Below, piece after piece: positions 5,773-21,562 of a DNA stretch of 21,831 nucleotides (position 1 is its first letter; each line of letters begins with the position of its first letter). A program made the translations under genes and the position numbers. The notes below the pieces were generated by a model. That model saw only the letters and a program-made list of their open reading frames with translations, made no database searches and was not told the DNA's origin. This DNA is from a virus: positions 1 to 21,831 of IMG/VR virus record IMGVR_UViG_3300030451_005435, one strand, 5' to 3'.

Positions 5773-8700
5773 TAGTATCCTCCTCCATAGCCACCGCCAC
5801 CGCTGGATCCTCCGCCCCCACTTGATCCAGAAGACCCAGAGCTACCAGTATTGTCAGTAGGAGGAGTAGGATTAGATTGTTGAGTTGGTTGCTGAGGTGT
5901 TTGTTGAGTTTGATCCATTGAAGGAGTATCACTTGTGTTAGTTTCACTTGTGCTAGTGGTGTCGGAAACATTTGATTCTGGTAATGTAGCTTGTTCTATA
6001 GCAGCTTGTTCTGCTGGAGTGTATGTGACAGGTGCAGATAATCCCAAACTTTCTTCTTTGGTATTATATATCGTAGCATGAGGAGTGGATACATGTACAG
6101 CTCCAACCATCTTAACACCTGTGGATGGGTGAACGTGGAAATCGCCATAATAAGGATTACCATTCACCCAACCTACTTGTTTCTTAGGTAGACTATATAC
6201 ACAATCAACCACATCTACAACAAGCATGCCAGGGCCTGGTCTTTCTCCAATATCTGCAACGTAATCAGGACTATATGATATCACAGGGATAAGTTCAGCG
6301 CCTAATCCTGTGGAAGTGTTTAATACTACCTCTGGTCTTACGGCATGTTTATCTACACACTTTATGTTTTGAACTCCAACGATTGATCCAGCAGGGGTCA
6401 ACACAAAATCAAACTTACATTGACCTACCATACCATAATCAGTGGGTTCATATCCAATGCCAGGCCTCACTGGAATCAGAGTAGTTACAATACCAACTGC
6501 CTGACTTCCTATTCCAGAAACTCCTCTAGTGGTGAAATTATATGTATCACTTCTCGCAATACCAGCAAATACGTTATTATTCGTATCTTTAAATGAACCC
6601 TCTGACATTGAAATAAAGTATTCAGTGTTAGATTTTAAATCTTTTTGAGGATCAATTTTTATAATTCTATCGGATAAGAAGGATATATTAGAACTTTTTA
6701 CATTTATCCTTTCGTGAACAACATTAGTTGTAGCTTCTGTTATAGTTACCTCTCCTTCTCCTCTTGAAATAGTTTCATTGAATGTAATTGATAGAGAAGC
6801 GGAAGTATCAACTCCAACTGCATCGTCGGCTGGAGTGGTGAAAGTAATATATGGAGGTGTCCGATCTTCATCACCTTCATAAGGTTCTAAAAAGTCAGGG
6901 CCTTCTGTCACAGGAAACTTTGGTGGCACTACGTTGGTTGATGGGCAGTAACCCCTACCAACAGAGTACATGAAGATAGATACGATAGATCCATTTCCAT
7001 CTAAAATTGCCTCTGCCCTTGCTCCTCCTCCATGTCTAGTCTTATCAATAATGGTGATCGTGGGACGTTCAGTATAACCAAATCCTCCGTCTAATATCTG
7101 CAATGTAAGGATACTTCCGTCCACAGCTGATACTATTGGGAGTAATGCTGCTGTCTTTGTTCCGTCACCAAGGACTTCTACCTTTGGTGGGATACACTCC
7201 CCCCATGTAAATCCAGGCGGAACTCCTCTACCCAAATCATCTTGAGTCTGTGGATTATTTGTTTTCTCGTTACAATCGAAAAATGCTGCAACATCGTTAC
7301 CTAATATACTCAACAAAGAGAATTTACCACCGAGGTTTGGTGGATAATCTTCATCAGCTAATTCGTTAAGTTTAACAAAAACATTATTTAATCTCCATCT
7401 TTTCTTCTTATCACCGTCTTGTTGTTTAACATAACCTGTCAGTTGTTCTTTGAGTTCTTTGGTCACTGTAACTCCACCACCAGCAGCAGATACCTCTCCT
7501 GTTTTAGTTTCTAATATACTATTGATTTGTCCATCTGAGAAAGTATCAAACACAGCTTTGTTTGATGCTGTAACCTCTATTGGTGCGTCTATCTTCTCTG
7601 TAGCGTTTAAGATATTAAGCCAACTTCTAGGAGGTTTGTTAAACCCTCCCTCTCCTTGTACCCAATCATCATATTCCTTGCACTGTAACTTATCGCACTC
7701 TAAGAATCCCAATAACATATCAACGTAACTACTTACCTTTCCTAATAAGTTACCGATACCACCTATAGCTCCTGTCAACCAATCTAATCCACCCATGATA
7801 GGTGCAAGTAAATTACTAAGACTATCATTAATCGATCCCATAATTGCACCAATAGCCTGTTCTATGGCACATACAGTTGGGTTTAGGGCTTTACCGACCA
7901 TTTCTTTGAAAAGATCTTTTATCATGCCAAAAATATCAAAACCTAACTTTTCAAACACACAGAAAATAATATCCATTATTCTCTTGAATGCTTTACCTAT
8001 GGGAGGTTGTTGTGGTTCTGGTACTAACAGTGCAATAAAGTTTTTAAATCTCTTCCCTAAGAATTTAACGACTTTATCTCTTATCATTCTAATTATAGAC
8101 TTCACCGCACCATTAACTATTCTGGATGCTTTGCCGATAAATTGTTGTATATCTACTACAGTATTACTAAAAGTATCAATATACTCTCCAGCAAATTCTG
8201 TTAGACCATTGATTGTCGTAAGGAAACTACCTATCGCATGAGTAATCTCACTAATGGCATCATTCTCACAAGCATTACCAGCTGTGTGAGGGCCTAATCC
8301 TTTAGGATCATAATTATCTGAAAGAGTACAGAACATACCGCCTTCAAACTTAGTCATGTCTGAAGAGTCCGATAGTCCTACCTTTTTACCAGCATTGTCA
8401 TTTACACCAGTAGAATCACCACCACTGGCAGGAGGATAAGTAGTTTTTCCAGTTACAGTTCTACCAGTAAAAATTGGTAACTTTGAGTCTGTATTGGTAT
8501 TATCAGGGCCTAGTGGATTAATTGTTCTAGGTAGAGCGCCAAAGATAACTGGTTGTTGTGCTTCTTCGCCATCTAGAAAGAATCCAAAAACAGTTTCTCC
8601 ACCAAGCATTTGATTACTGTCTTGCAAGGCACCTTGACCAGCACCTTTAGATGCATCCACTAGAACATGACACCAAGGCAATTGATCATCAGGTAATGTT

Positions 8701-12153: not shown

Positions 12154-13862
12154 TAGTTTCCGTTATGAGCATCTACTATGTTTAACATACTCATAGTGCT
12201 TGGGAGGTGTATGTTCCTTGAATCAACTGATGAGAGTATTGGTATATTATTACCAGCCTGAGTCATTTCTTTTATAGTTTGCTTTTGTGTTGGAGTTTGA
12301 GCCTGAGTCGTACCTCCATCGCCACTCATTTGCAATGGTACGATCTGTGGTTCTCCAGGCTTTGTTGCAGTTTGAGAAACATCATCAGCAACCAACTGTC
12401 TCTGATTTAATGATTCAAGATTAGATTCTACCTTAGAAGTTGTCACCTCTTCTGGTATATTTAATTGTTCTACTTGTAAATCATCTGGAGTCTGTATTTC
12501 CTCAGCCTTTACTGGGCCACCTAATATGACACTACTTGCACTATTAAGTAATCCTTTAGTGAAATCACTAAAATCACTACCAAAAACGAACTGACTTGCT
12601 TGATCAGCAATACCACTCACTCTAGATAATATATCTTTTCCTGTCAAACCTCTGTCACCAGTGGCACCTGTTTGGCCTTTTTCTCCATCTCTACCTGTCA
12701 ATCCCTTCTTAACAAGACCAAAAACATTCTGTATTACATTCTGTACAGGACTCCTTCCTTTCTCGTCAAAGTCAGTTTTACCGAGAGTCATATTGTCTAC
12801 AAAACCCTGGCCAAGATCTTGTAATTTGGTGTCACCTCTCTTATCAAAGTCAAATATACCTCCTGTGAAGTGATCTGCAATACCAGTAACAGCTCTCATT
12901 AATCCTTTTGGTTTGTTCTCTTCTACTTCCTCTTCCTCTTCTACTGTGGTTGGAGTTCTAGTGACTACAAATTTACCATCATCAGTTATTTCAATCGTAG
13001 CATTCTCTTTTCCAACACCCATAGGTGTTTCTTTTGGTTTAACACTGGTTTCTTTTTTCCCTTCACCGTCAGGAGGTTGCACCTCTTCTTTAGGCTCTCC
13101 TCTCTTTTCAAGGAAAGTCATTATACCTTCAAGTTTATCAAGAGATTTAGCAAAAAACTTAGATGCCTTAGTCTTTACTTTGTCTTTGACTTCTTTACCT
13201 TTTCTCTTAAAGAATTTGCCAACTGACTTGACACCATCTATTATCTTACTACCAACAAATTTTGCACCAGCAACTATACCAGCCGCAGCTAGACCTGTCA
13301 AAACAAATGGTGCAGCAATGGCAGCGACACCAGCCGCAGCAATAACTTTTATTATATTACCTACAGTTCTTAAGAATCCACCGCCACCTTTACCACTGGC
13401 AAGTTTACTTACAAAGTCTACTGCTAATTTATTTGCTCTTTCTAAGAAGGGTAACTGTTCCCTCTGCATTTTGGATAGAGCAGCTCCAAATCCATCAAGT
13501 TCACCAAGACCTCCATCAAATATTTTACCAAGTAACTTATTAGGATCAAAACTATCAATCCTCCCCTCTACCTTCTTTTCGAGACTTGGAACTATATTGT
13601 TTGTTATATTTTTTACTATCTTACTGATCTTCGATTTTGGGCTTATCTTCGTATCCTTTGTTAATGGTTTTACCTTTTCATCTACACCACCTAATATCTT
13701 CTTACCTCTTATCTGAGATAAACCTTTTTGTGCCTTGAGCTTTACAGTCCCACGTTTCCCAAAATTTCTTTTGAGTAACGTATTACCTTTCTTGACAATA
13801 CTCCTACCTGTTTTAAGAGTCTTTTTGCCAAGATTTGTTAGTCCTGATAACTTTTTAGCCAT
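12153..13862 (-). CDS. Candidate tape-measure/tail-length protein (gp29-like)
   Basis: A 569-residue protein that I assign as the tape measure by position and build. It has a highly basic N-terminus (about 1-85, many K and G), a long hydrophobic region at 168-201 (GNIIKVIAAAGVAAIAAPFVLTG and on), then a basic helix, and a polar C-terminal half. Hydrophobic segments of this type are usual in tape measures. The length is close to T4 gp29 (590 residues), and the gene follows the gp26/small-ORF pair with the frameshift signal, the usual position for a tape measure. Residues 390-410 hold seven Gly-X-Y triplets, a collagen-like insert. The start overlaps the upstream small ORF by eight bases (ATGGCTAA). 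Direct homology to gp29 is not proven. Confidence 0.6.
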   Translation of the reverse strand: MAKKLSGLTNLGKKTLKTGRSIVKKGNTLLKRNFGKRGTVKLKAQKGLSQIRGKKILGGVDEKVKPLTKDTKISPKSKISKIVKNITNNIVPSLEKKVEGRIDSFDPNKLLGKIFDGGLGELDGFGAALSKMQREQLPFLERANKLAVDFVSKLASGKGGGGFLRTVGNIIKVIAAAGVAAIAAPFVLTGLAAAGIVAGAKFVGSKIIDGVKSVGKFFKRKGKEVKDKVKTKASKFFAKSLDKLEGIMTFLEKRGEPKEEVQPPDGEGKKETSVKPKETPMGVGKENATIEITDDGKFVVTRTPTTVEEEEEVEENKPKGLMRAVTGIADHFTGGIFDFDKRGDTKLQDLGQGFVDNMTLGKTDFDEKGRSPVQNVIQNVFGLVKKGLTGRDGEKGQTGATGDRGLTGKDILSRVSGIADQASQFVFGSDFSDFTKGLLNSASSVILGGPVKAEEIQTPDDLQVEQLNIPEEVTTSKVESNLESLNQRQLVADDVSQTATKPGEPQIVPLQMSGDGGTTQAQTPTQKQTIKEMTQAGNNIPILSSVDSRNIHLPSTMSMLNIVDAHNGN

Positions 13863-14046
13863 TGTTTGCTTGCGCTTCCCGAGCTCTTTGTTTTAGTTGT
13901 TCTTCTTCAATATGTAATTTAAGTAAACCAACATACACATCTCTCTCCCAAGGTGGCATATTCTCAATTTCTGTCAGAGAATATTTATGATACTGCATCA
14001 GAGCAAAGTTGATTCGGAAGTATGTCTCAAGATCTATATGAGACAT
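13855..14046 (-). CDS. Small ORF likely made as -1 frameshift extension of gp26 (second tail chaperone)
   Basis: The 63-residue ORF contains a helical motif (INFALMQYHKYSLTEIENMPPWERDVYVGL) that resembles the second, frameshifted half of tail-assembly chaperones such as lambda GT: a short helix, a Thr/Ser-x-x-E-I, then a Met-Pro and a helix ending in Glu-rich residues. Its ATG (14046) lies within the 5' arm of a perfect hairpin and has no Shine-Dalgarno sequence, so independent initiation looks poor. The frame stays open upstream through AGT, CTA and CGC to the T TTT TTC heptamer at the end of gp26, so a -1 slip gives a gp26 fusion of about 304 residues (R-L-S joins the two). In T4, gene 51 follows gene 26; whether this small ORF is its equivalent is not shown. 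The end overlaps the tape-measure candidate by eight bases. Confidence 0.75.
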   Translation of the reverse strand: MSHIDLETYFRINFALMQYHKYSLTEIENMPPWERDVYVGLLKLHIEEEQLKQRAREAQANNG

Positions 14047-14076
14047 ACTTAGGCGAAAAAATCCGATAGCCCCTCT
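14018..14076 (-). promoter_or_regulatory. Programmed -1 ribosomal frameshift signal
   Basis: In the gp26 frame the end reads GAT TTT TTC GCC TAA. This places the canonical heptamer T TTT TTC at 14061-14055 in the X XXY YYZ register. After four bases (14054-14051) comes a perfect 12-bp hairpin: AAGTATGTCTCA at 14050-14039, a 9-base loop (TATAGATCT), and TGAGACATACTT at 14029-14018. A Shine-Dalgarno-like AGAGGGG at 14076-14070 lies eight bases before the heptamer, as in the dnaX stimulator. The -1 frame runs without stop into the small downstream ORF. The stem covers part of the gp26 stop and the small ORF's ATG. Confidence 0.85.
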
Positions 14077-15873: not shown

Positions 15874-16332
15874 ATGGCTTATAAGGGCAAATTCAAACCA
15901 AAACATATAAAAAAGTATAAAGGTGATCCCACTCAGATCATTTATCGTTCTCTTTGGGAGAGAAAGTTCATGGAATATTGTGATCTGACAGAGAATATAA
16001 GTCAATGGCAATCAGAGGAGTTTTGGATACCATATAAAAATCCTTTAGATAAAAAGATACACAGATACTTTCCAGACTTCTTCATTAAGTATCAAGATTC
16101 AAATGGAAAGAAAAGATCTGTTGTGATAGAAGTGAAACCCAAGAAACAATGCAAGGCTCCTCCAAAGAATCCAAAGAGAAGAACTAAGGCATGGGCACAT
16201 GCTGTTCAAACATGGGTTATAAATGAAGCAAAGTGGAAAGCAGCAGAACAATACTGTGCTGACAGAAAATATGAATTTAAGATCATGACCGAAGACGATT
16301 TAGGTATTTCACATGATCGCAGAAGATATTAG
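15874..16332 (+). CDS. gp4: gp4 (gp50/65), head completion nuclease
   Basis: A 152-residue protein, nearly the same length as T4 gp4 (150). It belongs to the TnsA-like head-completion family: SLWERKFMEYCD with E29, RYFPDFFI with D68, and the EVK core E86-V-K88 (VVIEVKPKKQ) form the endonuclease residues. gp4 is required to finish the filled head so that tails can join. The N-terminus is very basic (GKFKPKHIKKYKG). No strong Shine-Dalgarno lies before the ATG. The end overlaps the start of the next gene by 20 bases in another frame. Opposite to the tail operon and preceded by a late-type promoter. Confidence 0.9.
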   Translation: MAYKGKFKPKHIKKYKGDPTQIIYRSLWERKFMEYCDLTENISQWQSEEFWIPYKNPLDKKIHRYFPDFFIKYQDSNGKKRSVVIEVKPKKQCKAPPKNPKRRTKAWAHAVQTWVINEAKWKAAEQYCADRKYEFKIMTEDDLGISHDRRRY

Positions 16333-20681: not shown

Positions 20682-20969
20682 CTATTTATCTTTTTTAGTA
20701 ACCCACATCGGTAGGTATATCAGGGTAAAAGCACTACCCCAGAAGGCAAGAAAAACGTATAAATGACTACCTCTGTGAGGTGAAAATGCAAACCCTAAGG
20801 CTACAACAATTACCCAAACGTAGTCTACTATACCATGAAAAGTCTGCCAACCATCACCGTACTTTTCTATAAGATTATCTCTTTGTTTTGCAGCCCAAGG
20901 CGAAACATGTCTCATCATCACAAATCCCTCATTGAGAAACATAATGATAAATCCTATCCAAAAGATCAT
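20682..20969 (-). CDS. Small integral membrane protein (95 aa)
   Basis: A 95-residue protein with three likely membrane spans: about 2-18 (IFWIGFIIMFLNEGFVM), 45-61 (HGIVDYVWVIVVALGFAF) and 70-87 (YVFLAFWGSAFTLIYLP). A short polar segment (VSPWAAKQRDNLIEKYGDGWQ) separates the first two; the C-terminus ends in KKDK. There is no other motif and I do not know the function. The start overlaps the stop of the upstream oxygenase as ATGA, so the two are translated together. Possible roles include a membrane partner of the oxygenase or a lysis-related factor, but nothing in the sequence decides this. Confidence 0.65.
   Translation of the reverse strand: MIFWIGFIIMFLNEGFVMMRHVSPWAAKQRDNLIEKYGDGWQTFHGIVDYVWVIVVALGFAFSPHRGSHLYVFLAFWGSAFTLIYLPMWVTKKDK
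20683..20689 (-). promoter_or_regulatory. Late-type promoter motif before DUF1825-like gene
   Basis: On the minus strand ATAAATA (20689-20683) lies 21 bases before the ATG at 20661, overlapping the stop of the membrane protein gene. Spacing is like that of the gp26 motif. In AT-rich DNA a single 7-base match is only modest evidence. Confidence 0.4.
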
Positions 20970-21562
20970 ACTTTATCTCCTAAAAAAGCCCAATGTATCC
21001 AAGATGTAGCAATGTACTTTGGATGAGAAATGGGAACATTACCTTGATGTGGGAACAAATAGTTGCATGGGAAAATAAGAACCTTTCCTTTTTCTGGTTT
21101 GCAAGCAATGCCATAATTTGGAAATTCTGTTTCTCCTCCCTCATCAACGGTATTAAGATACATTATAACAGCAAACAGCCTAGTTACGCAACCCCCAGCG
21201 TATTGATCAAAATGACATTCAAATTTTCCCTTATTCTGAGGATACACTCTGACAGAATAATCATGGAAAACTAAATCTTGAACTGGGCCAGGACAATCAT
21301 TTATGTATCTACTGTAAGTATCATGAGTTATCTCAGAAATCCACTGAAATATAGGTTCTTTAGGTGTTGGGGTAGCAGCTTTGGCTATTTTAGTTCCATA
21401 ATCTACACCTTGATCATTACCTTCTCCTACAGAACCATCTATATGTCGATCTTCAACTGCATGAAACCAAGATAACATTTGATCAACCCTTTCATCAGGT
21501 ATGATATTGTAGGTTTTTATTAAGTCGGTTGTCTTAGTTGGAAATTGACAATGAGTTATCAT
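20966..21562 (-). CDS. 2OG-Fe(II) oxygenase, prolyl-4-hydroxylase type
   Basis: A 198-residue dioxygenase. The ligands are H117-x-D119 (FECHFDQYAGG), the distal H172 (YLFPHQGNVP) and K182 in place of the more common arginine that binds 2-oxoglutarate (SHPKYIATSWIHW). The conserved strand VIMYLNTVDEGGETEFPNYG and KPEKGKVLIFP mark it as a prolyl 4-hydroxylase-like enzyme. It is much closer to the 192-779 protein in its C-terminal build (FPxxYLFPH...SWIxW) than to the other two. Start and stop overlap neighbours as ATGA. Between gp33 and a membrane protein, so part of the replication and transcription block. Substrate unknown. Confidence 0.88.
   Translation of the reverse strand: MITHCQFPTKTTDLIKTYNIIPDERVDQMLSWFHAVEDRHIDGSVGEGNDQGVDYGTKIAKAATPTPKEPIFQWISEITHDTYSRYINDCPGPVQDLVFHDYSVRVYPQNKGKFECHFDQYAGGCVTRLFAVIMYLNTVDEGGETEFPNYGIACKPEKGKVLIFPCNYLFPHQGNVPISHPKYIATSWIHWAFLGDKV

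Follow-up and report, generated by a model that had tools for sequence, protein, structure and literature searches.

A predicted -1 frameshift joins gp26 to a gp51-type C-domain in a probable T4-like tail-assembly chaperone gene

Organization of the gp26 junction

The window, the whole stretch of 21,831 nucleotides of viral DNA that was analysed, carries on its minus strand a gene of the T4 gp26/gp51 family. This gp26 gene (14768-14049) encodes in the zero frame a protein of 239 aa, here taken as the short form (TAC-N), that matches PF12322 (T4_baseplate, E=1.3e-72) and phrog_150 (E=6.9e-79); its N-domain scores 244.5 bits against PF12322, for which the cut-off is 24.5. The last gp26 codons are GAT TTT TTC GCC TAA, and the minus-strand junction sequence reads ...GAATTAGAGGGGCTATCGGA TTTTTTC GCCT AAGTATGTCTCA TATAGATCT TGAGACATACTT CCG. 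Sequence and conservation mark within it a slippery heptamer, U UUU UUC (14061-14055), in the zero-frame phase GAU UUU UUC and one codon ahead of the TAA stop (14051-14049). A spacer of 4 nt leads from the heptamer to a hairpin (14018-14050) with 12 of 12 positions paired, made up of a 5' arm (14050-14039), a 9-nt loop (14038-14030) and a 3' arm (14029-14018). Upstream, with 8 nt between it and the heptamer, lies an SD-like AGAGGGG (14076-14070), a likely frameshift stimulator.

The next ORF on this strand, ORF63 (63 codons, 14046-13855), is in the -1 frame of gp26 and corresponds to the gp51 C-domain, matching phrog_634 ('baseplate hub assembly catalyst') over residues 1-60 (E=1.8e-25); a second match (E=8e-4) falls on columns 241-277, at the C-terminal end of phrog_150. 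Its ATG (14046-14044) lies 2 nt past the gp26 stop, within the 5' arm of the hairpin. The -1 extension RLS together with ORF63 (13855-14055) would constitute the C-domain of a predicted long form of 304 residues (238 + 66), and in a near-identical contig (L002) the -1 frame is open from 52 nt upstream of the gp26 stop through the ORF63 stop. A preliminary description of this DNA had placed T TTT TTC in register at the end of gp26, followed after four bases by a 12-bp stem with a 9-base loop, and was correct to the base; the AGAGGGG eight bases upstream and the open -1 frame into a 63-residue ORF, which it had also reported, are likewise present, and the ATG that it described as hidden in the stem lies in the 5' arm with no SD at normal spacing.

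Downstream, an ORF of 569 aa (13862-12153, minus strand) overlaps ORF63 by eight bases and is a candidate tape-measure gene by virtue of its position, length and hydrophobic segment; a profile search against T4 gp29 gave no match. Of 80 relatives, 66 likewise have a long ORF downstream of the C-domain. Elsewhere in the window, Pfam matches mark four genes in these 22 kb as 2OG-Fe(II) oxygenase-like (192-779, 1159-1683, 1680-2309 and 20966-21562, minus strand), and a plus-strand ORF (15874-16332) has a TnsA-like endonuclease N-terminal domain (PF08722, E=3e-24) and apparently stands at the position that the 'head completion' gp4 has in S-SSM7.

Conservation of the slippery heptamer

The bare heptamer is not rare in this AT-rich window, where TTTTTTY is found 19 times against 24 expected. 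Because the motif alone is unremarkable, conservation must decide, and by comparison of junction sequences chance is ruled out by conservation across relatives and not by the window alone. The nearest set consisted of the 80 viral contigs closest in gp26; the reading reached the gp26 stop in 78 of them, and T TTT TTC stands in register, ten bases ahead of that stop, in each of the 78. Wider scans yielded 247 junctions, dereplicated at 90% gp26 identity to 84, and T TTT TT[C/T] stands in register in 80 of these 84 relatives and, with named phages added, in 19 of 25 clusters at 45% gp26 identity, counts that are not independent trials since the relatives are related by descent. Synechococcus phage S-SSM7 and Prochlorococcus phage P-SSM2 have the same junction as the window. 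The hosts of the heptamer-bearing clusters include Synechococcus, Prochlorococcus, Vibrio (phages nt-1 and D491s), Aeromonas (AS-zj, 65.2 and phiWae14), Xanthomonas, Pseudomonas (Astolliot), Agrobacterium, Sinorhizobium and Stenotrophomonas. The conserved heptamer that the preliminary description expected from aligning gp26/next-ORF junctions is therefore found.

The codon pattern at this site is, as comparative sequence evidence goes, the most direct indication of -1 frameshifting. The residue that precedes the two phenylalanines (FF) may be S, D, N, A, H or T, and in every one of the 80 relatives T is the last base of its codon; the FF codons are TTT TTC or TTT TTT, again in all 80, and elsewhere in these genes TTC accounts for one third of Phe codons (293/885). 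This choice of codons is not demanded by protein conservation but is demanded by two tRNAs re-pairing one base back.

A second in-frame heptamer, T TTT TTA (20987-20981, minus strand), occurs 22 nt before the end of an oxygenase gene. It was rejected as a frameshift site because its -1 frame stops after two codons; an AGGAG past it resembles an SD for the ORF that comes after the oxygenase gene.

Hairpin and SD-like run

The junction RNA folds with -21.6 kcal/mol (z = -3.7), and none of 200 shuffles folds as well. Across 36 distinct sequences from the window's clade, 94.4% of the cells in the hairpin are paired, a level reached by none of 500 shuffles, with slid controls at 49% paired or less. 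The compensatory stem changes sought by the preliminary description appear in this clade as 18 double-changed cells, which sit in two pairs (columns 19-37 and 21-35). In most phages of the clade, moreover, the hairpin folds better than synonymous recodings of the same peptide. Outside the window's clade, most relatives with the same heptamer have junctions that fold no better than such recodings. A hairpin universal to the family was rejected on this mostly neutral result, which marks the hairpin as a local addition. As part of the frameshift cassette first proposed, the hairpin thus stands for the cyanophage clade, where it covaries, and falls for most of the distant relatives, where it is absent.

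Codon choice at the SD-like site is also biased: the Glu that precedes Gly is encoded by GAG in 51 of 66 rows against 467 of 1643 elsewhere in the gene (Fisher p=1e-15), and the Gly itself by GGG in 18 of 66 against 36 of 601 (p=5e-7), rows that are not phylogenetically independent. By its covariation in this clade the hairpin, and by its codon bias the SD-like run, fit the stimulatory elements of frameshift-expressed chaperones of the lambda G/GT type, and both would stimulate slippage.

T4 gp26 and gp51, and three gene layouts

The T4 proteins provide a reading of the two halves of this locus. PF12322 covers residues 1-201 of T4 gp51 (249 aa) and residues 1-206 of T4 gp26. In profile comparisons, the alignment of T4 gp51 to the frameshifted long form spans 236 columns and runs through the junction (99.4% probability), and the C-terminus of gp51 matches the C-domain profile (94.9%), identifying that domain as gp51-type; the alignment of T4 gp26 is confined to the N part and stops at FF, and T4 gp26 has EFF at the corresponding place. 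By homology, T4 gp26 is the short form and gp51 is the short form plus the C-domain. T4 gp26 (5803-6429 in T4 sequence L087) has in addition a weak match (E=9e-4) to phrog_1140, 'baseplate hub distal subunit'. The annotation of Meroveus calls gp28 a tape-measure chaperone as well, and gp28 may be a further relative.

The number of PF12322 genes varies with the layout. The four T4-type phages tested (T4, Acj133, Meroveus and KpNIH-6) have exactly two, on opposite strands, and each of sixteen other phages has one; the heptamer was not found in the T4-type phages. From these two genes and the missing heptamer, T4 appears, on sequence grounds, to carry the long form on a duplicate gene that took the place of the frameshift. 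A third layout is seen in the vibriophages D495, 207E48.1 and YC and in Pseudomonas phage Cygsa01, in which a single PF12322 gene has a stop overlapping the C-domain ATG; here the N and C parts are kept, the heptamer was not found, and a search for a hidden second PF12322 gene found none. The preliminary description had named phages that keep both ORFs without the heptamer as evidence against it; such phages do exist, all of them in distant groups of different gene layout. These heptamer-free exceptions, the T4-type phages and some vibriophages with Cygsa01, fit the logic of frameshifting.

It is possible, and suggested here tentatively, that the T4 superfamily has met a need for two forms in three ways: by frameshifting, which as the most widespread layout would be ancestral; by duplication with a full-length copy; and, in Ackermannviridae-like vibriophages and Cygsa01, by separate N and C proteins from a stop-start junction. 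Should the stop-start layout be real, tail chaperones could dispense with the covalent link between N and C parts that is considered essential to them. Under the same tentative scheme, the hairpin of the window's clade would have two roles, driving slippage and masking the ATG, the latter preventing production of a free C-domain.

A probable single gene with two products

On comparison of relatives, the evidence for -1 frameshifting at the end of gp26 is strong: an X XXY YYZ heptamer lies in register before the short-form stop, and an open -1 frame encodes a conserved C-domain, which starts in the -1 frame in 80 of 80 heptamer-bearing relatives. It is thus very probable that gp26 and ORF63 are one tail-assembly chaperone gene yielding 239- and 304-residue forms through a -1 frameshift, and the earlier proposal of a frameshift pair with a tail-chaperone role is strongly supported by these comparisons.

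In the lambda G/GT system, a short form and a -1 frameshifted long form are made by a shift near the 3' end, and the tape-measure gene follows. By the proposed mechanism, most ribosomes would terminate at TAA and release the short form, and a minority would be paused by the downstream hairpin and probably also by upstream SD-like pairing. The paused ribosomes would slip one base back on U UUU UUC, re-pair as UUU UUU and read on through Arg-Leu-Ser-Met-Ser-His..., giving the long form (TAC-NC) with the predicted junction peptide ...SDFFRLSMSHIDL... The short and long forms would have masses of about 27 and 34 kDa. By analogy with lambda, the C-domain of the long form would recruit the tape-measure protein and the N-domains would coat it during tail assembly. 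The comparisons establish the signal, its conservation, the covariation of the hairpin in this clade and the homology to T4 gp26 and gp51; slippage in the cell, its efficiency, binding to the tape measure and the identity of the tape measure are what we infer.

The position of the ORF63 ATG bears on how the C-domain is produced. Since this ATG follows the stop by 2 nt in the window's clade, reinitiation could also make some separate C-domain, so that frameshifting would give the long form and reinitiation a little free C-domain. The window's clade, nt-1, D491s and Mendera do combine a heptamer with a start codon located at the stop or just past it; the start codon is not kept family-wide, however, and a free C-domain has no known role, so operation of both routes is considered unlikely.

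A stricter alternative, that ORF63 is a separate gene expressed by termination-reinitiation at the ATG 2 nt past the gp26 stop (TAAGTATG) to give free N and C proteins, would agree with the examined cyanophage GenBank records, which give gp51 its own CDS, with the nearness of ATG and stop, and with the heptamer-free stop-start overlaps of D495, 207E48.1, YC and Cygsa01. Against it, the ATG is enclosed in the 12-bp stem, and the 23 nt between it and the end of the SD-like run exceed the spacing of a normal SD. Of 80 relatives, 36 lack any ATG, GTG or TTG within the first nine -1 codons of the C-domain, and in Aeromonas phage AS-zj a start codon first appears at codon 31, with no gene annotated there. 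Separate expression also leaves unexplained the register-locked heptamer, the fixed T of the preceding codon and the hairpin covariation, and in T4 gp51 the N and C parts are covalently joined; it is accordingly judged very improbable. Hardly credible at all is the view that FF and the hairpin owe their conservation to the protein sequence, to codon bias or to a signal for transcription, for while FF is nearly invariant as protein, T4 gp26 (EFF) included, and T-rich runs are common in the window, this does not explain the third-base T of a changing residue or a -1 frame that encodes a conserved domain right past the heptamer, and what lies past the hairpin is coding sequence and then another gene, while the hairpin itself outperforms synonymous recoding in the window's clade.

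Annotation of the locus

With gp26 and ORF63 read as one frameshifted gene, the cyanophage pair annotated as 'baseplate hub subunit' (gp26) and 'assembly catalyst' (gp51) would belong to a single chaperone gene with two products. No joined frameshift CDS is annotated at the gp26/C-domain locus in the phage records examined. Records split the chaperone gene, begin the C-domain too late or miss it: the C-domain is unannotated in Aeromonas phages AS-zj and 65.2 and Synechococcus phage DSL-LC03, and in S-RIM8, OLIVR6, phiWae14, X1 and Astolliot its annotation begins only at a late internal start codon.

IME-SM1 (KR560069), with a 280-aa 'baseplate hub subunit', was considered as a natural in-frame fusion and rejected. 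Its slippery site has five T against six in Mendera, 14 aligned records of other phages are one base longer over the slippery stretch, and the annotated tail of its protein is a wrong-frame reading; the five-T run is probably a homopolymer sequencing error.

Comparison with known systems

A conserved tail-chaperone frameshift in dsDNA phages was reportedly described by Xu, Hendrix and Duda in 2004. The window resembles lambda G/GT in pairing a short form with a long form predicted to arise by a -1 shift near the 3' end, and in the long, tape-measure-like ORF that comes next; it differs in its slippery site, U UUU UUC and not the lambda heptamer, and in its strong hairpin 4 nt downstream. A possible structural likeness is offered by the predicted gp26 model (pLDDT 86), for which Foldseek gave the HK97 tail assembly chaperone 2ob9 the highest probability (0.44) among the PDB matches listed, with 3.0 A over 62 columns and TM 0.42 on the target; at E=2.5 this is far below significance and serves as a lead only, not as proof of homology. 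No solved homologue of gp26 was significant by sequence in the PDB or among the listed fold matches.

T4 gp26 (TAC-N) and gp51 (TAC-NC) share with the window the PF12322 N-domain, the phrog_634 C-domain and the pairing of a short with a long form; in T4 these are encoded by two genes on opposite strands, whereas the window has one gene with a predicted -1 frameshift. As cited in PMC10885494 and PMC12846349, Vladimirov, Gautam and Davidson (2022, Virology 566:9-15) identified tail-assembly-chaperone genes of T4-like phages. PMC10885494 states, after that work, that some T4-like phages use separate short and long genes and not frameshifting, and PMC12846349, citing the same work, that poly-T -1 slippery sequences are known in T4-like TAC-N genes. 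By these statements the core idea of a frameshift has already been published, and the remark in the preliminary description that none was described for gene 26 of T4-like phages does not hold.

Pseudomonas phage Adele and the Vandenendeviridae, as presented in PMC12846349, likewise show a poly-T -1 slip (GTTTTT) at the end of TAC-N and a downstream frame wrongly annotated as a separate gene; they are other phage families than that of the window, likened to it by the layout of the frameshift. Beyond what these two papers report, the present analysis adds the hairpin of the window's clade, the codon evidence and the survey of three architectures, and it provides a testable recoding signal with a covarying hairpin.
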